Assembly: GCA_024402495.1 (NCBI GenBank)
Contig: JAKSTR010000002.1
Span: 80,708 to 117,689 of the forward strand
Direction of reading: 5' to 3'
Length of the DNA stretch: 36,982 nucleotides
Source: Treponemataceae bacterium
Lineage (GTDB): Bacteria; Spirochaetota; Spirochaetia; Treponematales; Treponemataceae
Under the pieces are notes generated by a model. That model was not told where the DNA came from. It saw only the letters and a program-made list of their open reading frames with translations, and did not search any database. Numbering within the stretch: position 1 is the first letter of the stretch; every line of letters starts with the position of its first letter. The translations under genes were made by a program, and so were the position numbers. Below, one piece after another: positions 3,445-25,441 of the stretch.

Positions 3445-3557
3445 AAGATTTCCTCAATTGCCCGAAGATTTTGCAAATTGCAAACAGCAATCAGGGTTTC
3501 AGTTTAGCAAATAGCGCAAAAAACTTCCACGTTTTGTTTGCTGCGCAAAAGCCGGGC

Positions 3558-3860
3558 TTTCTACAAACGTAGAAGCACTGTTTTTTTTTCTGGGCTTTCT
3601 ACAAACGTAGAAACGTCGTTTTTTTTAAAGTTGGGCTTTCTACAAATGTAGAAAAGCTGTTTTTTTAAAAGTTGGGCTTTCTACAAATGTAGAAAAGCTG
3701 TTTTTTAAAAAGTTGGACTTCCTACAAACGTAGAAACGCTGTTTTTTTAAAAAGTTGGGCTTTCTACAAATGTAGAAAAGCTGTTTTTTTTAAAGTTGAG
3801 CTTTCTACAAATGTAGAAACGCTGTTTTTTTAAAAGTTGGGTTTTCTACAAATGCGGAAA
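3558..3860. repeat. Tandem array 1: eight dyads at 38-42 bp spacing
   Basis: Eight units, each centred on the inverted repeat TTTCTACAAATGTAGAAA (8-bp arms, AA centre; some copies have ACGT in place of ATGT). Dyads start at 3558, 3596, 3637, 3678, 3719, 3761, 3802 and 3843, so spacings are 38, 41, 41, 41, 42, 41, 41. Between dyads lie GCTG, a run of 6-9 T, then AAAAGTTGGG. The first and last copies are the most degenerate. Units are near-identical throughout, so there are no CRISPR-like unique spacers. The TACAnnTGTA core resembles CopY/BlaI-type operators; that is only a resemblance. Confidence 0.9.
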
Positions 3861-3936
3861 GCCGTTTGCAGGATTGATTTTAAGTTGCTAGAAACTGATA
3901 AATATGAATGATTTTTCGGAATACGGTTCATTTTCA

Positions 3937-17465: not shown

Positions 17466-17857
17466 TGTCATTCCGAACTCGTTTCGGAATCTGATTCTGA
17501 CAACAAATCGGATTCCGAAATAAATTCAGCATGACACAGCTTTTGCTGTTTGCCTTGTCTCTAACCATATCTTGGTGTGCGCAAAAGCCCCCAGTTTTCG
17601 CTTGTGCAAAAACTGGGTCTATTTTTATGGACGTTTGAACGTGCTTTTGCTTTTTTCCTTGTGTCATTCCGAACTCGTTTCGGAATCTGATTCTGACAAC
17701 AAATCGGATGCTGAAATAAATTCAGCATGACGGAGCTTTTGCTGTTTGCCTTGTCTCTAACCATATCTTGGTGTGCGCAAAAGCCCCCAGTTTTCGCTTG
17801 TGCAAAAACTGGGTCTATTTTTATGGACGTTTGAACGTGCTTTTGCTTTTTTGCAGA
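17466..17857. repeat. 196-bp tandem duplication with palindromic GTCATTCC head
   Basis: Copy 1 starts at 17466 and copy 2 at 17662; they differ at only a few bases over about 190 bp. Each copy holds a hairpin ATTCCGAA/TTTCGGAAT, an ATGCTGAA/TTCAGCAT hairpin (intact in copy 2, broken in copy 1), a CCCAGTTTT/AAAAACTGGG hairpin followed by TCTATTTTT, and the palindrome ACGTTTGAACGT. Fragments of the GTCATYC head also occur at 17426-17456. Minus-strand frames crossing both copies repeat the same peptide and are artefacts. A third, inverted partial copy lies at 3937-4022. Confidence 0.9.
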
Positions 17858-18068
17858 AAAATACCGGAAGGTCACAATTTTTCAATTAGCTTTTGCCCTT
17901 GGTTTAAACTTTTTTATAAAAATGCTATGTTTTTAGCTGTGTAAATTACTTGCATTTGCACAAAAAGGCGCATAAGCCTTATTTTTCAATTGAAATTACT
18001 TCGTGATTTGCGGTTTTGCGCCGTTTGTGCCGCCGCAAACGCGGTGTTTTTGTTTATAGGAGAATAAA
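17858..18068. other. tyrS upstream region
   Basis: 211 bp without a gene. A small hairpin AAGGC-GCATAA-GCCTT lies near 17967-17983 and a GC-rich segment near 18010-18045 could fold. No T-box sequence was recognised. Confidence 0.5.
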
Positions 18069-20706: not shown

Positions 20707-20767
20707 TCAATCAAAATGAAAGTGCAGCATTGAAAAAAAACATGCGATGGGCTAAAATTGAAAAACT

Positions 20768-20784
20768 CTTCTATATAATAGAAG
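20768..20784 (+). promoter_or_regulatory. thrS -10 region inside a dyad
   Basis: TATAAT (20774-20779) lies within the inverted repeat CTTCTAT-ATA-ATAGAAG. The same TATAATAGAAGAAA string occurs before the cyclase operon. No clear -35 box was seen. Confidence 0.5.
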
Positions 20785-20798
20785 AAAATCACGATTTC

Positions 20799-20815
20799 CG
20801 CAGGTTGTATCTGCG
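20799..20815 (+). promoter_or_regulatory. tRNA-Thr anticodon-arm mimic in the thrS leader
   Basis: The mRNA would read CGCAG-GUUGUAU-CUGCG: a perfect 5-bp stem and a 7-nt loop. At tRNA positions 33-37 the loop gives U, UGU and A, the anticodon triplet of tRNA-Thr(UGU). The hairpin ends 4 nt before the Shine-Dalgarno AAAGGAAG and 17 nt before the ATG. Escherichia coli thrS is known to be repressed by ThrRS binding such an arm in its leader; use here is inference. Confidence 0.7.
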
Positions 20816-20832
20816 AGTCAAAGGAAGCTATT

Positions 20833-22581
20833 ATGGCAGTAAAAAATGAAAAACTTGAGATTGTACGCCACAGTACAGCTCACGTTATGGCACAAGCAGT
20901 GTTAAAACTTTTTCCTGGGGCAAAAGTTGCTATTGGACCGGCAATTGACAACGGTTTTTATTACGACTTTGATTTGCCACGCCCTATAAAAGAAGAAGAT
21001 TTGGGCGAAATTGAAAAAGAAATGCGCCGCATCGTAAGCGGCAATCACGATTTTGTTCGCACTGAAGTAACAAAAGAACAGGCTCTTGCCCAGTTTGCAG
21101 ACCAGCCGTACAAAATTGAGCTGATTAAAGATTTACCGGACGACGCAACAATTACCACTTACAAACAGGACACATATATTGATCTTTGCCGCGGCCCGCA
21201 CGTAGCAAACACAAAAGAAATTAATCCGCAGGCTTTTAAATTGATGAAAGTTGCCGGCGCATACTGGCGCGGCGATGTTACACGCCCTATGCTTACACGC
21301 ATTTACGGTACTGCATGGGAAAAACCAAACGATTTGAAAGATTACCTCAACATGCTTGCAGAAGCAGAAAAACGCGACCACCGCAAAATCGGAAAAGATT
21401 TGGATTTGTTCCACATCGACGACGAAAACCCGGGCGAAATTTTCTGGCACCCGAACGGATGGACAGTTTATTCAATTATTAAAGACTACGTTCGCGACAA
21501 AATCCGCAAAGACGGCTATGTTGAAGTTAATACACCTTTCGTTATGCCGCGCAGCTTGTGGGAACGCAGCGGACACTGGGCAAAATATCAGGAAAATATG
21601 TTCATTACCGAAAGTGAAAAACGCACTTTTGCATTGAAGCCAATGAACTGCCCTGGTCACGTAGAAATCTTTAAAAACCGCCTGCGGTCTTACAAAGATT
21701 TGCCGCTGCGTATTGCCGAATTCGGCAGCTGTACTCGCAACGAAGCCAGCGGCGCACTGCACGGAATTATGCGCGTGCGCGGTTTTGTTCAGGACGATGC
21801 CCATATTTTCTGTACGGAAGAACAGATTCCGGACGAAGTTGCAAAATTCTGCGCATTGCTGAAAGACATGTACAAAGATTTTGGTTTTGAAGACGACAAA
21901 ATTGTTGTTAAGTTTTCTACCCGCCCGGAAAAACGCGTTGGTACAGACGAAGACTGGGACAGAGCAGAAGGCGCACTTGCAGATGCCTGTAAAAAAGCCG
22001 GTCTGGAATACGAAATTCAGCCGGGCGAAGGCGCTTTTTATGGTCCAAAACTTGAATTTACTTTGATTGACGCATTAGGCCGCCCGTGGCAGTGCGGTAC
22101 AATTCAGGTAGACTACCAGCTGCCAAGCGCAGAACGCCTCAATGCCGAATATATCGGTTCTGACAACGCAAAGCACCACCCGGTAATGCTTCACCGCGCC
22201 GTTTTGGGTTCTTTGGAACGCTTTATCGGTATTCTTATTGAAAACTTTGCAGGTGCTTTGCCGGCATGGCTTTGCTTCCAGCAGGTTGCAATGATTCCGG
22301 TTGCCCCGGCTTTTAACGATTACGCCGAAGAAATCATGAACAAGCTTAAAGACGCAGGTTTCCGCGCCGAAGCTGACCTTGGTTCTGACAACATGAAAGG
22401 AAAAATCAAGGCTGCACAGTTGCAGAAAATTCCTTACATGCTGGTTGTCGGCGAAAAAGAAAAGGCAGAAGGCAATGTAGCCGTTCGTTTCCGCGACGGC
22501 AGACCGCAGCAGATTATGAAAGTAGACGAATTTATTGCCTACATTCAGGACAAAGTAAATACCCGTTTTGTTGGTATTTAA
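20833..22581 (+). CDS. thrS: Threonyl-tRNA synthetase lacking the TGS domain
   Basis: A 582-residue class II synthetase that charges tRNA-Thr. The protein opens directly with the editing (N2) domain: His13 and His17 in HSTAHVMAQ, and Cys119/His123 in LCRGPHV, the residues that clear Ser-tRNA-Thr. The N-terminal TGS (N1) domain of the about 640-residue standard enzyme is absent; AAAGGAAG before the ATG supports this start, and the region upstream is a leader. The catalytic core shows the zinc-site Cys in MNCPGH, motif 2 ([20 protein letters not shown]) and motif 3 ([14 protein letters not shown]), followed by the anticodon-binding domain. A terminator follows. The leader carries an anticodon-arm mimic, suggesting autogenous control. 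Confidence 0.97.
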
Positions 22582-22831: not shown

Positions 22832-24775
22832 ATGAATTTTTTCTTTTTTAAAAGCAGAAAAATGAACGATTCTTTTAGCGGCAAAAAATGCCCGAAAAAT
22901 GTAAAAATATTCGCTTTTTGTTTAGCACTTTCTGCAGCCTGCAACTTTTTCACCTTTGCAGAACAAACCCCGGCATTGCAGCCTGCCGCCAGACAGGCAG
23001 ATTTTATATTCATGCACGATGTTCACGATTTTTTAGACCGCCTTGCCCAGGCAAAACTGATAATCGATGAACAGTTCAAAAAAAATCCGCAAACCTTCGT
23101 ACTGGATGCCGGCGATTTTTCGATGGGCACCTTGTACCAGACTTCTTTTGCACAGTACGCGCCGGAATTACGCATTCTGGGCGCAATCGGCGTAGAAGCC
23201 ACCACGTTTGGCAACCACGAATTTGATTACGGCATAGAAACTCTGGCGCAAATGTTTGAAACGGCACAGAATGCCAGAAAACAGGGCGAAAAATTGCCTG
23301 CCTTTACAATAGCAAACCTTGACTATGCTTCTTCCAAAAGCGAAAGTGCAGGGCTTTTTGGCGCAATGCAGAATTATGGCGTTGAAGAATATTTTGTGCT
23401 GAACCACGGCGACATAAAAATTGCCGTTTTCGGCATAAACGGCAAAGATTCGCTGTTTTACACCTATGCGCCGGAACTTGCGTGGCTTGACCAGATTGAA
23501 AGCGCAAAAAAAACCGTTGCCCGCATAAAGCAGAACGAAAAAGTTGACATGATTGTGTGCCTTTCACATTCCGGCACAAACCCAAACGCTTCAAAATCGG
23601 AAGACCAGATACTTGCCAGAAACGTGCCCGAAATAGACCTGATTGTAAGCGGCCATACCCATACGGTTTTGCAGAAACCGATAATTCAGGGTGAAACCGC
23701 AATAGTTTCCTGCGGCGCGTATTCGCAGAATTTGGGCACAGTCAGCCTTTCGCAAAAAGAAAACGGGCGCTGGCAGGTAAAAAAATACGAACTTGTACCC
23801 GTTACCGATAATCTTCCAAAAGACCCCAAAATAAAGGAAATGCTGGACGGTTTTGCCAGAAACATAGACGAAAACGTTTTAAATCAGTTCGGCTGGGAAA
23901 TGAACCAGATAATTGCCCTTAACAGCTACAACGTGGATTTTTATCACGAAGTTGGCTATCTGATGGCAGATTCAATGAAAAAATCGGTAGAAAGCTTGCA
24001 GATACCGCCCAAAGACCAGTCAAAAGCCGACGATTTGGGCTACGGCTATCCGGTGGACGTGGTTATCGTTCCTTCCGGCGTGGTGCGCGACAGTTTTCGC
24101 CCCGGCGTTGTTACCGTAAAAGATGTTTTCAATTCTTATTCGCTGGGCATGGGCAGCGACGGCTTGCCCGGCTATCCGCTGATAAGCGTATGGCTTACCG
24201 GCAAAGATTTGCGCGCCGCAGCCGAAGTTGACGCAACGGTTTCCAAAATACTGGATTCCTGCCGGCTTTTCACTTACGGGCTGGCTTACGAAAAAAATTC
24301 GCGCCGCCTGATTTTTGACAAAGTTACCAGCGTATGGCTGGTTGATGCCGCCGGCGAAAAAACGGCAATTGAAGATAAAAAACTTTACCGCGTTATAACG
24401 GACCTTTGCACCGGCGAAATGCTTAGCGATGTTTTAAAAACTTCTTACGGCTTAATTTCCATTGTGCCGCGGAATGCAAAGGGCGAAGCGCTGAAAAACC
24501 TGAACGAAAATATAATTTATACCGGGCGCGGCGAGCTGAAAGGCTGGGAAGCGATTGCCGCAGATCTGGAAAAGCGCGGAACAGTCGGCGATTATTCCAA
24601 TGCCGAAGCCGCCGCAATAATAGAAAAACCGTCGGTAAATCCGGTGAACTTTTTTGCCCGGCCTTCAAAGGCGGCGATGCTTATTTATGGCGCAGTAATT
24701 GTTCTGCTTGCCCTTATTGCACTTGCAGTGCTTGCCGTTTGCAGAATTATTAAAAAACACCGCCAGTTAAAATAA
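22832..24775 (+). CDS. Membrane-anchored 5'-nucleotidase-like metallophosphoesterase
   Basis: A 647-residue relative of UshA with a signal peptide (hydrophobic stretch about 25-42, ending TFAEQ) and a C-terminal transmembrane helix (about 617-640, MLIYGAVIVLLALIALAVLA) followed by a basic tail, so the enzyme should face the periplasm. Metal motifs are MHDVHDFL (replacing the usual HTNDxHG but keeping Asp and His), VLDAGDFSMG, FGNHEFDYG, CLSHSG and SGHTHT. In the C-terminal domain the usual NGGxIR is replaced by PSGVVRDSF. No Shine-Dalgarno precedes the ATG at 22832, and an in-frame ATG at 22862 is an alternative. The variations suggest a substrate different from that of the lipoprotein nucleotidase at 1840-3444. 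A tandem dyad array begins at its stop codon. Confidence 0.87.
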   Translation: MNFFFFKSRKMNDSFSGKKCPKNVKIFAFCLALSAACNFFTFAEQTPALQPAARQADFIFMHDVHDFLDRLAQAKLIIDEQFKKNPQTFVLDAGDFSMGTLYQTSFAQYAPELRILGAIGVEATTFGNHEFDYGIETLAQMFETAQNARKQGEKLPAFTIANLDYASSKSESAGLFGAMQNYGVEEYFVLNHGDIKIAVFGINGKDSLFYTYAPELAWLDQIESAKKTVARIKQNEKVDMIVCLSHSGTNPNASKSEDQILARNVPEIDLIVSGHTHTVLQKPIIQGETAIVSCGAYSQNLGTVSLSQKENGRWQVKKYELVPVTDNLPKDPKIKEMLDGFARNIDENVLNQFGWEMNQIIALNSYNVDFYHEVGYLMADSMKKSVESLQIPPKDQSKADDLGYGYPVDVVIVPSGVVRDSFRPGVVTVKDVFNSYSLGMGSDGLPGYPLISVWLTGKDLRAAAEVDATVSKILDSCRLFTYGLAYEKNSRRLIFDKVTSVWLVDAAGEKTAIEDKKLYRVITDLCTGEMLSDVLKTSYGLISIVPRNAKGEALKNLNENIIYTGRGELKGWEAIAADLEKRGTVGDYSNAEAAAIIEKPSVNPVNFFARPSKAAMLIYGAVIVLLALIALAVLAVCRIIKKHRQLK

Positions 24776-24777
24776 TA

Positions 24778-25068
24778 TTTGTTAATTGCGAAAAAGTTTT
24801 TGGTCGTTATTAACATTTGTTAATGCCGCCAAAAACTTTTTATGCTATTAACATTTGTTAATGCCGCCAAAAACTTTTTATGCCATTAACATTTGTTAAT
24901 AACGCAAAAAGACATCTTTTTTACCAATTCACAAATGTTAACGCCTCAAAAAGAATTCTTTTTTATCAATTAACAAATGTTAATAGCCCAAAAAGAACAC
25001 TTTTTTACCAATTCACAAATGTTAATGGCACAAAAAGAATTCTTTTTTATGAATTAACATTTGTTAAT
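24778..25068. repeat. Tandem array 2: eight dyads at 38-42 bp spacing
   Basis: Units centred on ATTAACAAATGTTAAT or ATTAACATTTGTTAAT. The first is a half-site at 24778-24786; full dyads start at 24809, 24847, 24885, 24927, 24969, 25011 and 25053. Spacings are 38 bp for the first three intervals and 42 bp for the last four. Between dyads lie A/T tracts such as AAAAACTTTTT or the palindrome AAAAAGAATTCTTTTT. The array begins at the nucleotidase stop codon. A plus-strand frame of 83 codons crosses it as a 14-residue repeat only because 42 is divisible by 3; it is not called as a gene. Confidence 0.9.
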
Positions 25069-25441
25069 GCCCCAAAAAGACATTTTTTTATAAAAAACAC
25101 TTGCACAAACTGCGCTATTGCCTGCTATTAGCCTTTGCCAACTTAGCTTTACAAATTTCAACATAAAAAAAGAAACAAAAGAATATTTAACAATGAATAA
25201 AGAGGCGGCCTTGCGGCAAGCCCTGCCATGAAAAAAATCGTCACGACCGAAGGGCGAACGCTTTTTTCATGGAGGGATTACCGCAAGGCTGCTTTTACAC
25301 ATTCATTAAACATTATTTTATTTCGATGATTATTTTTACCATTCAATTTTGCAACCCAAAAACACAGCACCATAAAAAAACTGTTATAAAATAGTACAAA
25401 TTTGAAAAAATATAGAATTTTACGTTTTTTTGGCGTAAAGT
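25069..25441. other. Non-coding region between array 2 and the ABC exporter
   Basis: AT-rich. It holds composite hairpin D (25201-25295), then a promoter-like AT-rich stretch and a small hairpin TTTACG/CGTAAA (25419-25439) directly before the exporter start. No gene seen. Confidence 0.7.
25201..25295. repeat. Composite hairpin D (core subtype II)
   Basis: Outer arms GGCCTTGCGG and CCGCAAGGCT, middle stem CCATGAAAAAA against TTTTTTCATGG. The core at 25230-25268 has TCGTCACGACC, GAA, GGGCG and AACGC between A and T runs, matching element B apart from the insert in B. Confidence 0.75.

Follow-up and report, generated by a model that had tools for sequence, protein, structure and literature searches.

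The window, by which we mean the whole stretch of 36,982 nucleotides analyzed here, carries thrS on its forward strand behind a leader of ~70 nt (Table 1). An earlier note had read this downstream gene as encoding a threonyl-tRNA synthetase (ThrRS), an assignment confirmed by (i) its Pfam domains, namely tRNA-synt_2b (class II core), HGTP_anticodon, and tRNA_SAD (N2 editing), as well as by (ii) its match to E. coli ThrRS (1qf6, E 9e-206), in which the alignment begins at E. coli residue 65; the closest named ThrRS, that of 'Spirochaetales bacterium Spiro_07', is 89% identical, and the source of the window is a Treponema-like metagenome genome. The protein has no TGS match, and the accompanying claim that this ThrRS lacks the N-terminal domain is correct for N1/TGS, whereas the N2 editing domain is present. 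Among the Treponemataceae loci inspected (L084-L115, for example), ThrRS frames begin only a few residues before N2, so that TGS loss seems to be family-wide and independent of the hairpin described below.

Elsewhere in the window, an intergenic tandem array with a 38-42-base period and units bearing the palindromes TTAACATTTGTTAA / TTAACAAATGTTAA occupies 24773-25090, and an array of the same style, with a 41-base period and the palindrome TTTCTACAAATGTAGAAA in its units, lies at 3547-3867. Between genes upstream of tyrS, a direct duplication of 191 nt (98% identity, spacing 196) occupies 17466-17852, and the tyrS leader of the window (17931-18068) has, ahead of its Shine-Dalgarno, the GC-rich inverted repeat TTTGCGG...CCGCAAA.

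Table 1. Features of the thrS locus, in window coordinates.
Feature	Position	Strand	Description	Basis
Candidate thrS promoter	20730..20758	+	TTGAAA-17-TAAAAT; placement inferred	consensus scan, 10/12
Hairpin 1 (tentative second element)	20767..20785	+	TCTTCTAT-ATA-ATAGAAGA; near presumed transcript 5' end	
Outer helix, 5' strand	20793..20796	+	GATT	covaries with 20816-20819 in relatives
Bulge	20797-20798	+	TC, between GATT outer strand and core stem	
Core hairpin	20799..20815	+	CGCAG (20799-20803), GTTGTAT loop (20804-20810), CTGCG (20811-20815)	sequence and relatives
Invariant UGUA	20806..20809	+	UGU (20806-20808) at loop positions 34-36, plus A37	identical in 15/15 leaders with the element
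Outer helix, 3' strand	20816..20819	+	AGTC; abuts the Shine-Dalgarno	covaries with 20793-20796
thrS Shine-Dalgarno	20820..20825	+	AAAGGA, 7 nt before the ATG at 20833	sequence
thrS	20833..22581	+	threonyl-tRNA synthetase without TGS domain	Pfam; PDB match

The leader RNA contains a hairpin, CGCAG-GUUGUAU-CUGCG, whose end is separated from the thrS Shine-Dalgarno by 4 nt. The presence of a UGU hairpin at this place, as first noticed from the sequence, is thus confirmed by the letters themselves, and relatives carry it too. The stronger claim, that the leader matches an anticodon arm 'exactly' in its geometry, can be kept for the 5-bp stem, the 7-nt loop, and UGU at positions 34-36, but the predicted minimum-energy fold of the window allele, as an isolated RNA, adds G32-U38 and U33-A37 pairs and leaves a UGU triloop; in alleles with A33, a pair of the U33-A37 type is impossible, and the predicted fold keeps a larger loop. 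Because the free fold of the window allele closes these two pairs, the mimicry would concern the anticodon bases more than the geometry of the whole anticodon loop. The structure also extends further than had been described, since folding of the window leader suggested, in addition to the core hairpin, an outer helix (GATT/AGTC) across a UC bulge. Folding of the 27-nt element gives z = -3.2.

When 75-nt leaders are shuffled, 0.5% of them contain a perfect 5-bp stem that closes a 7-nt loop with GU at positions 35-36, a share that falls to 0.04% if U33 and A37 are also required; at the former rate, and with many genes read, a single leader is weak evidence on its own. An unrelated thrS leader, L014, has a chance UGU hairpin, which we rejected as a true element because it is not conserved (being absent as a conserved feature from the near relative L211 and from 40 further Treponema leaders). 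That the window hairpin is likewise a chance structure in one leader has a negligible probability, and we regard this explanation as already refuted by covariation, by conservation in seven genera, and by the blind recovery of a further leader, all described below.

Among thrS loci gathered from the genus and the family (no thrS was matched in G005 or G006, which are thus uninformative on the element), the hairpin was found in 13 further genomes and on the named contigs L004 and L005; 14 Treponemataceae genomes besides that of the window have a related hairpin in the same position before thrS, which amounts to 15 genomes and seven genera overall. In the core stem, 60 of 60 cells are paired (12 distinct sequences), two-sided changes occur in four of the five pairs, and the observed covariation is reached by 0 of 500 shuffles, with slid registers nowhere near it. 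The stem reads, for instance, CGTAA/TTACG in G044, CACGG/CCGTG in G019, and CGCGG/CCGCG in G063, and G-U wobble pairs in the stems of G025 and G023 point to an element that acts as RNA rather than as DNA. A DNA-level operator, in which a transcription factor would bind the inverted repeat CGCAG-N7-CTGCG, would suit the location of the dyad downstream of the candidate promoter; however, the half-sites vary (CGTAA, CACGG, CGCGG) with compensation, G-U pairs occur, the spacing differs in G063, and the asymmetric loop is invariant, all of which make this explanation very improbable.

The outer helix, too, varies in sequence, with GGUU/AACC, GGUU/AGCC, GGCU/AGCC, CUAU/GUAG, and GUAU/AUAC as alleles in relatives. 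At least three of its four pairs form in 13 of the 15 leaders, and 52 of 60 cells are paired, where shuffles average 35, a comparison in which pairing is favored by a bulge register set by hand. In an unedited MAFFT alignment, two-sided changes were found in seven of the nine pairs of the whole structure, a level reached by 0 of 500 shuffles. Judged by its compensating core stem, its covarying outer helix, and its invariant UGUA, the thrS leader element is an RNA structure under selection. A ligand-free hairpin, acting as a stabilizer or as a ribosome standby structure by the ribosome-binding site, would be compatible with a stable stem that adjoins an unpaired Shine-Dalgarno in short leaders, but a structural role of this kind needs no invariant loop, whereas UGUA is the most conserved part of the element while the stem sequence varies; we therefore consider this explanation improbable.

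The loop is 7 nt long in 14 of the 15 leaders (8 nt in G063) and has the consensus G-W-UGUA-W, in which UGUA is found in 15/15 leaders and position 38 is U, A, or G. The earlier note had proposed looking for compensatory stem changes around an invariant U-UGU-A loop; the stem and UGUA behave in this manner, but U33, which is present in the window allele, is U in eight of the 15 leaders and A in seven. Conversely, G32, which had been considered an oddity for a tRNA-like loop, is kept in 14 of 15 leaders. In the assembly from which the window derives, a contig end (G000:C164:15) truncates the tRNA-Thr(UGU) gene, and in four carriers the loop of this tRNA is UUUGUAA, whose positions 34-37 are UGU-A as in the thrS hairpin. 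The window genome's own tRNA-Thr(GGU) and tRNA-Thr(CGU) have the loops AUGGUAA and CUCGUAA, respectively, so that G35-U36-A37 is common to all three Thr tRNAs and the thrS hairpin loop. Real anticodon loops keep U33, and ThrRS must accept any base at position 34; the conservation of U34 and G32, despite this tolerance at position 34, indicates a constraint on the loop beyond plain NGU mimicry. Threonine identity elements comprise acceptor-stem pairs and anticodon nucleotides (review, PMC9976931), and G and U are named as conserved residues of the E. coli operator loops (PMC7373986).

Searching the full set of 274 family genomes with the covariance model R1 yielded 15 matches at E < 2e-7, all of which are thrS leaders, from seven genera (g1, g9, g10, g13, g14, g17, and g19). 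The G023 thrS leader, which is absent from the model, was recovered blind by this search, and its downstream frame was read as thrS. The weaker R1 matches examined in the 274 genomes (E 2e-4 and worse) lie in or beside unrelated genes, which gives no sign of a regulon; a G002 match at E 2e-4, considered as a second target, was discarded on the same grounds, as it lies inside a reading frame or beside an unrelated gene. No further strong match was found among 394 genomes drawn from the order, where matches in G334 and G349 proved unrelated (the G334 thrS has a T-box-like sequence), and R1 gave no match, even with E values of up to 10 allowed, in the thrS leader of E. coli. It is conceivable that the hairpin regulates thrS through another factor (an RNA-binding or ribosomal protein, an RNase, or a small RNA) and that its Thr anticodon is coincidental, a proposal consistent with the conservation of U34 and G32, neither of which ThrRS needs, with the lack of conservation of U33, and with a prior of ~1 in 16 for NGU at positions 34-36. 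However, the restriction of the element to thrS among 274 genomes, without a regulon, the match of G35, U36, and A37 to all tRNA-Thr, and a location next to the Shine-Dalgarno, like that of the E. coli operator, all speak against another factor, as do the lack of a conserved TACA in the leaders that could serve as a pseudoknot partner for UGUA and of any Rfam (15) match to the element in the window. We consider this alternative unlikely.

The outgroup spirochaete branches (g3, g18, L007, L019, and L021) have T-box leaders before thrS, and 40 further thrS leaders, nearly all from g4, a large Treponema genus, contain no such element. On the ThrRS tree, the carriers need 3 state changes, versus 11.9 in shuffles (0/500). 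Two congeners of the window, G002 and G004, have no UGU element and a g4-like ThrRS, and the G002 leader contains a weak remnant (14.3 bits, CCGC/GCGG, no UGU). Loss of UGU in close relatives had been named in advance as an observation that would count against the operator; it does occur in G002 and G004, but because their thrS genes belong to a ThrRS clade without the element, and because G002 has a decayed remnant, we read this as loss of the element by that lineage. From one gene tree, in which several branches are weak, we infer that the hairpin took the place of a T-box close to the root of these Treponema and was then lost in the g4 line. T-box leaders (RF00230) likewise precede thrS and would respond to tRNA-Thr charging; in contrast to the spirochaete hairpin, which sits in a leader of ~70 nt and shows UGU in the anticodon sense, they read the tRNA by codon (ACN) and need an antiterminator. 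A T-box in the window was rejected, since there is no RF00230 match and no antiterminator GGUGGNACCGCG, and UGU is an anticodon rather than a Thr codon. As the outgroups carry T-box leaders instead, control by an anticodon mimic looks to have arisen independently in spirochaetes.

The earlier comparison with the E. coli thrS operator (domains 1-4; 1kog) is well founded as to place, in that a hairpin lies directly upstream of the thrS Shine-Dalgarno in the window and in its relatives, with the cognate enzyme downstream and a Thr anticodon in the loop (CGU in E. coli, UGU here). The two nevertheless differ, as (i) the E. coli leader, whose operator loop region reads UUUCGUG, has no detectable sequence similarity to the spirochaete element; (ii) the E. 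coli operator binds the ThrRS dimer symmetrically through two anticodon-like hairpins (domains 2 and 4), whereas here there is mostly one; (iii) the outer helix here abuts the Shine-Dalgarno, and the ThrRS is without TGS; and (iv) a U33-type anticodon loop, which characterizes the E. coli type of operator, is not maintained here. Hairpin 1 is a tentative second element, and three congeners (genus g1) have hairpins that correspond to it in position but not in sequence; its shuffle p is 0.004 in the window and 0.0007 in G007, the other two of the four are not significant singly, and the leaders of most other genera could not accommodate it. The loop of hairpin 1 in genus g1 contains no NGU, so that this hairpin does not reproduce domain 4 of the E. 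coli operator. In E. coli, a switch of the operator anticodon to CAU is reported to transfer control to MetRS.

In the solved E. coli structure 1kog, which we take to be the ThrRS-operator complex, ThrRS is represented by a 401-residue core without N-terminal domains, and the absence of TGS should thus not preclude operator binding. Autocontrol by ThrRS has its precedent in E. coli (PMC7373986, PMC9976931, PMC11088916), where the amino-terminal region of ThrRS excludes the 30S subunit and its deletion abolishes regulation (PMC7373986). With a probability of about 0.75, we propose that the thrS leader element is a cis-acting translational operator, a hairpin that ThrRS would bind and thereby repress translation of its own mRNA. 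ThrRS unoccupied by tRNA-Thr would recognize G35-U36 of the loop, and probably U34 and A37 too, via its C-terminal anticodon-binding domain. With the Shine-Dalgarno directly beyond the outer helix, any protein bound to the hairpin would occupy the ribosome-binding site; the bound ThrRS dimer would cover the adjacent Shine-Dalgarno and keep 30S subunits from loading, with the N2 editing domain probably adding to the steric block. As N2 is kept and the hairpin lies against the Shine-Dalgarno, N2 or the core itself could suffice without TGS. Upon accumulation, uncharged tRNA-Thr would compete for ThrRS, and the freed operator would allow more ThrRS to be made. Counting against an operator are (i) the seven leaders with A33, the conservation of U34 and G32, and the longer loop of G063; (ii) the leaders of G002, G004, and the sampled g4 genomes, in which the element is missing; and (iii) the natural absence of TGS, which is part of the region that the E. 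coli control needs. We lean, with less assurance, toward the fuller proposition that this is a ThrRS-binding operator independent of the enteric one, which replaced a T-box and combines a single hairpin and a TGS-less ThrRS with a loop (G32, A/U33) unlike that of tRNA.

In yeast, mRNA elements that resemble anticodon arms are bound by synthetases, as in the ThrRS-RPC10, HisRS, and AspRS mimics (PMC9956033, PMC6542539), and similar binding is presumed here. The yeast mimics are eukaryotic and differ in their targets and positions, and in the case of RPC10 the effect seems to be activation, not repression. No report of such a spirochaete element was found in the open-licence literature, to which our search extended. 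To our knowledge, autogenous control of a synthetase by an anticodon mimic has been studied well in a single bacterial example, that of E. coli thrS; the kind of control is thus already known, and what would be new here is a second, apparently independent bacterial instance of anticodon-mimic thrS control. The thrS leader element is a structured RNA that Rfam 15 does not contain, and its target is clearly a single gene. If its second, apparently independent origin in spirochaetes is true, the anticodon-mimic solution would be repeatable, and the roles of the second hairpin and of the N-terminal domain would become testable by comparison.
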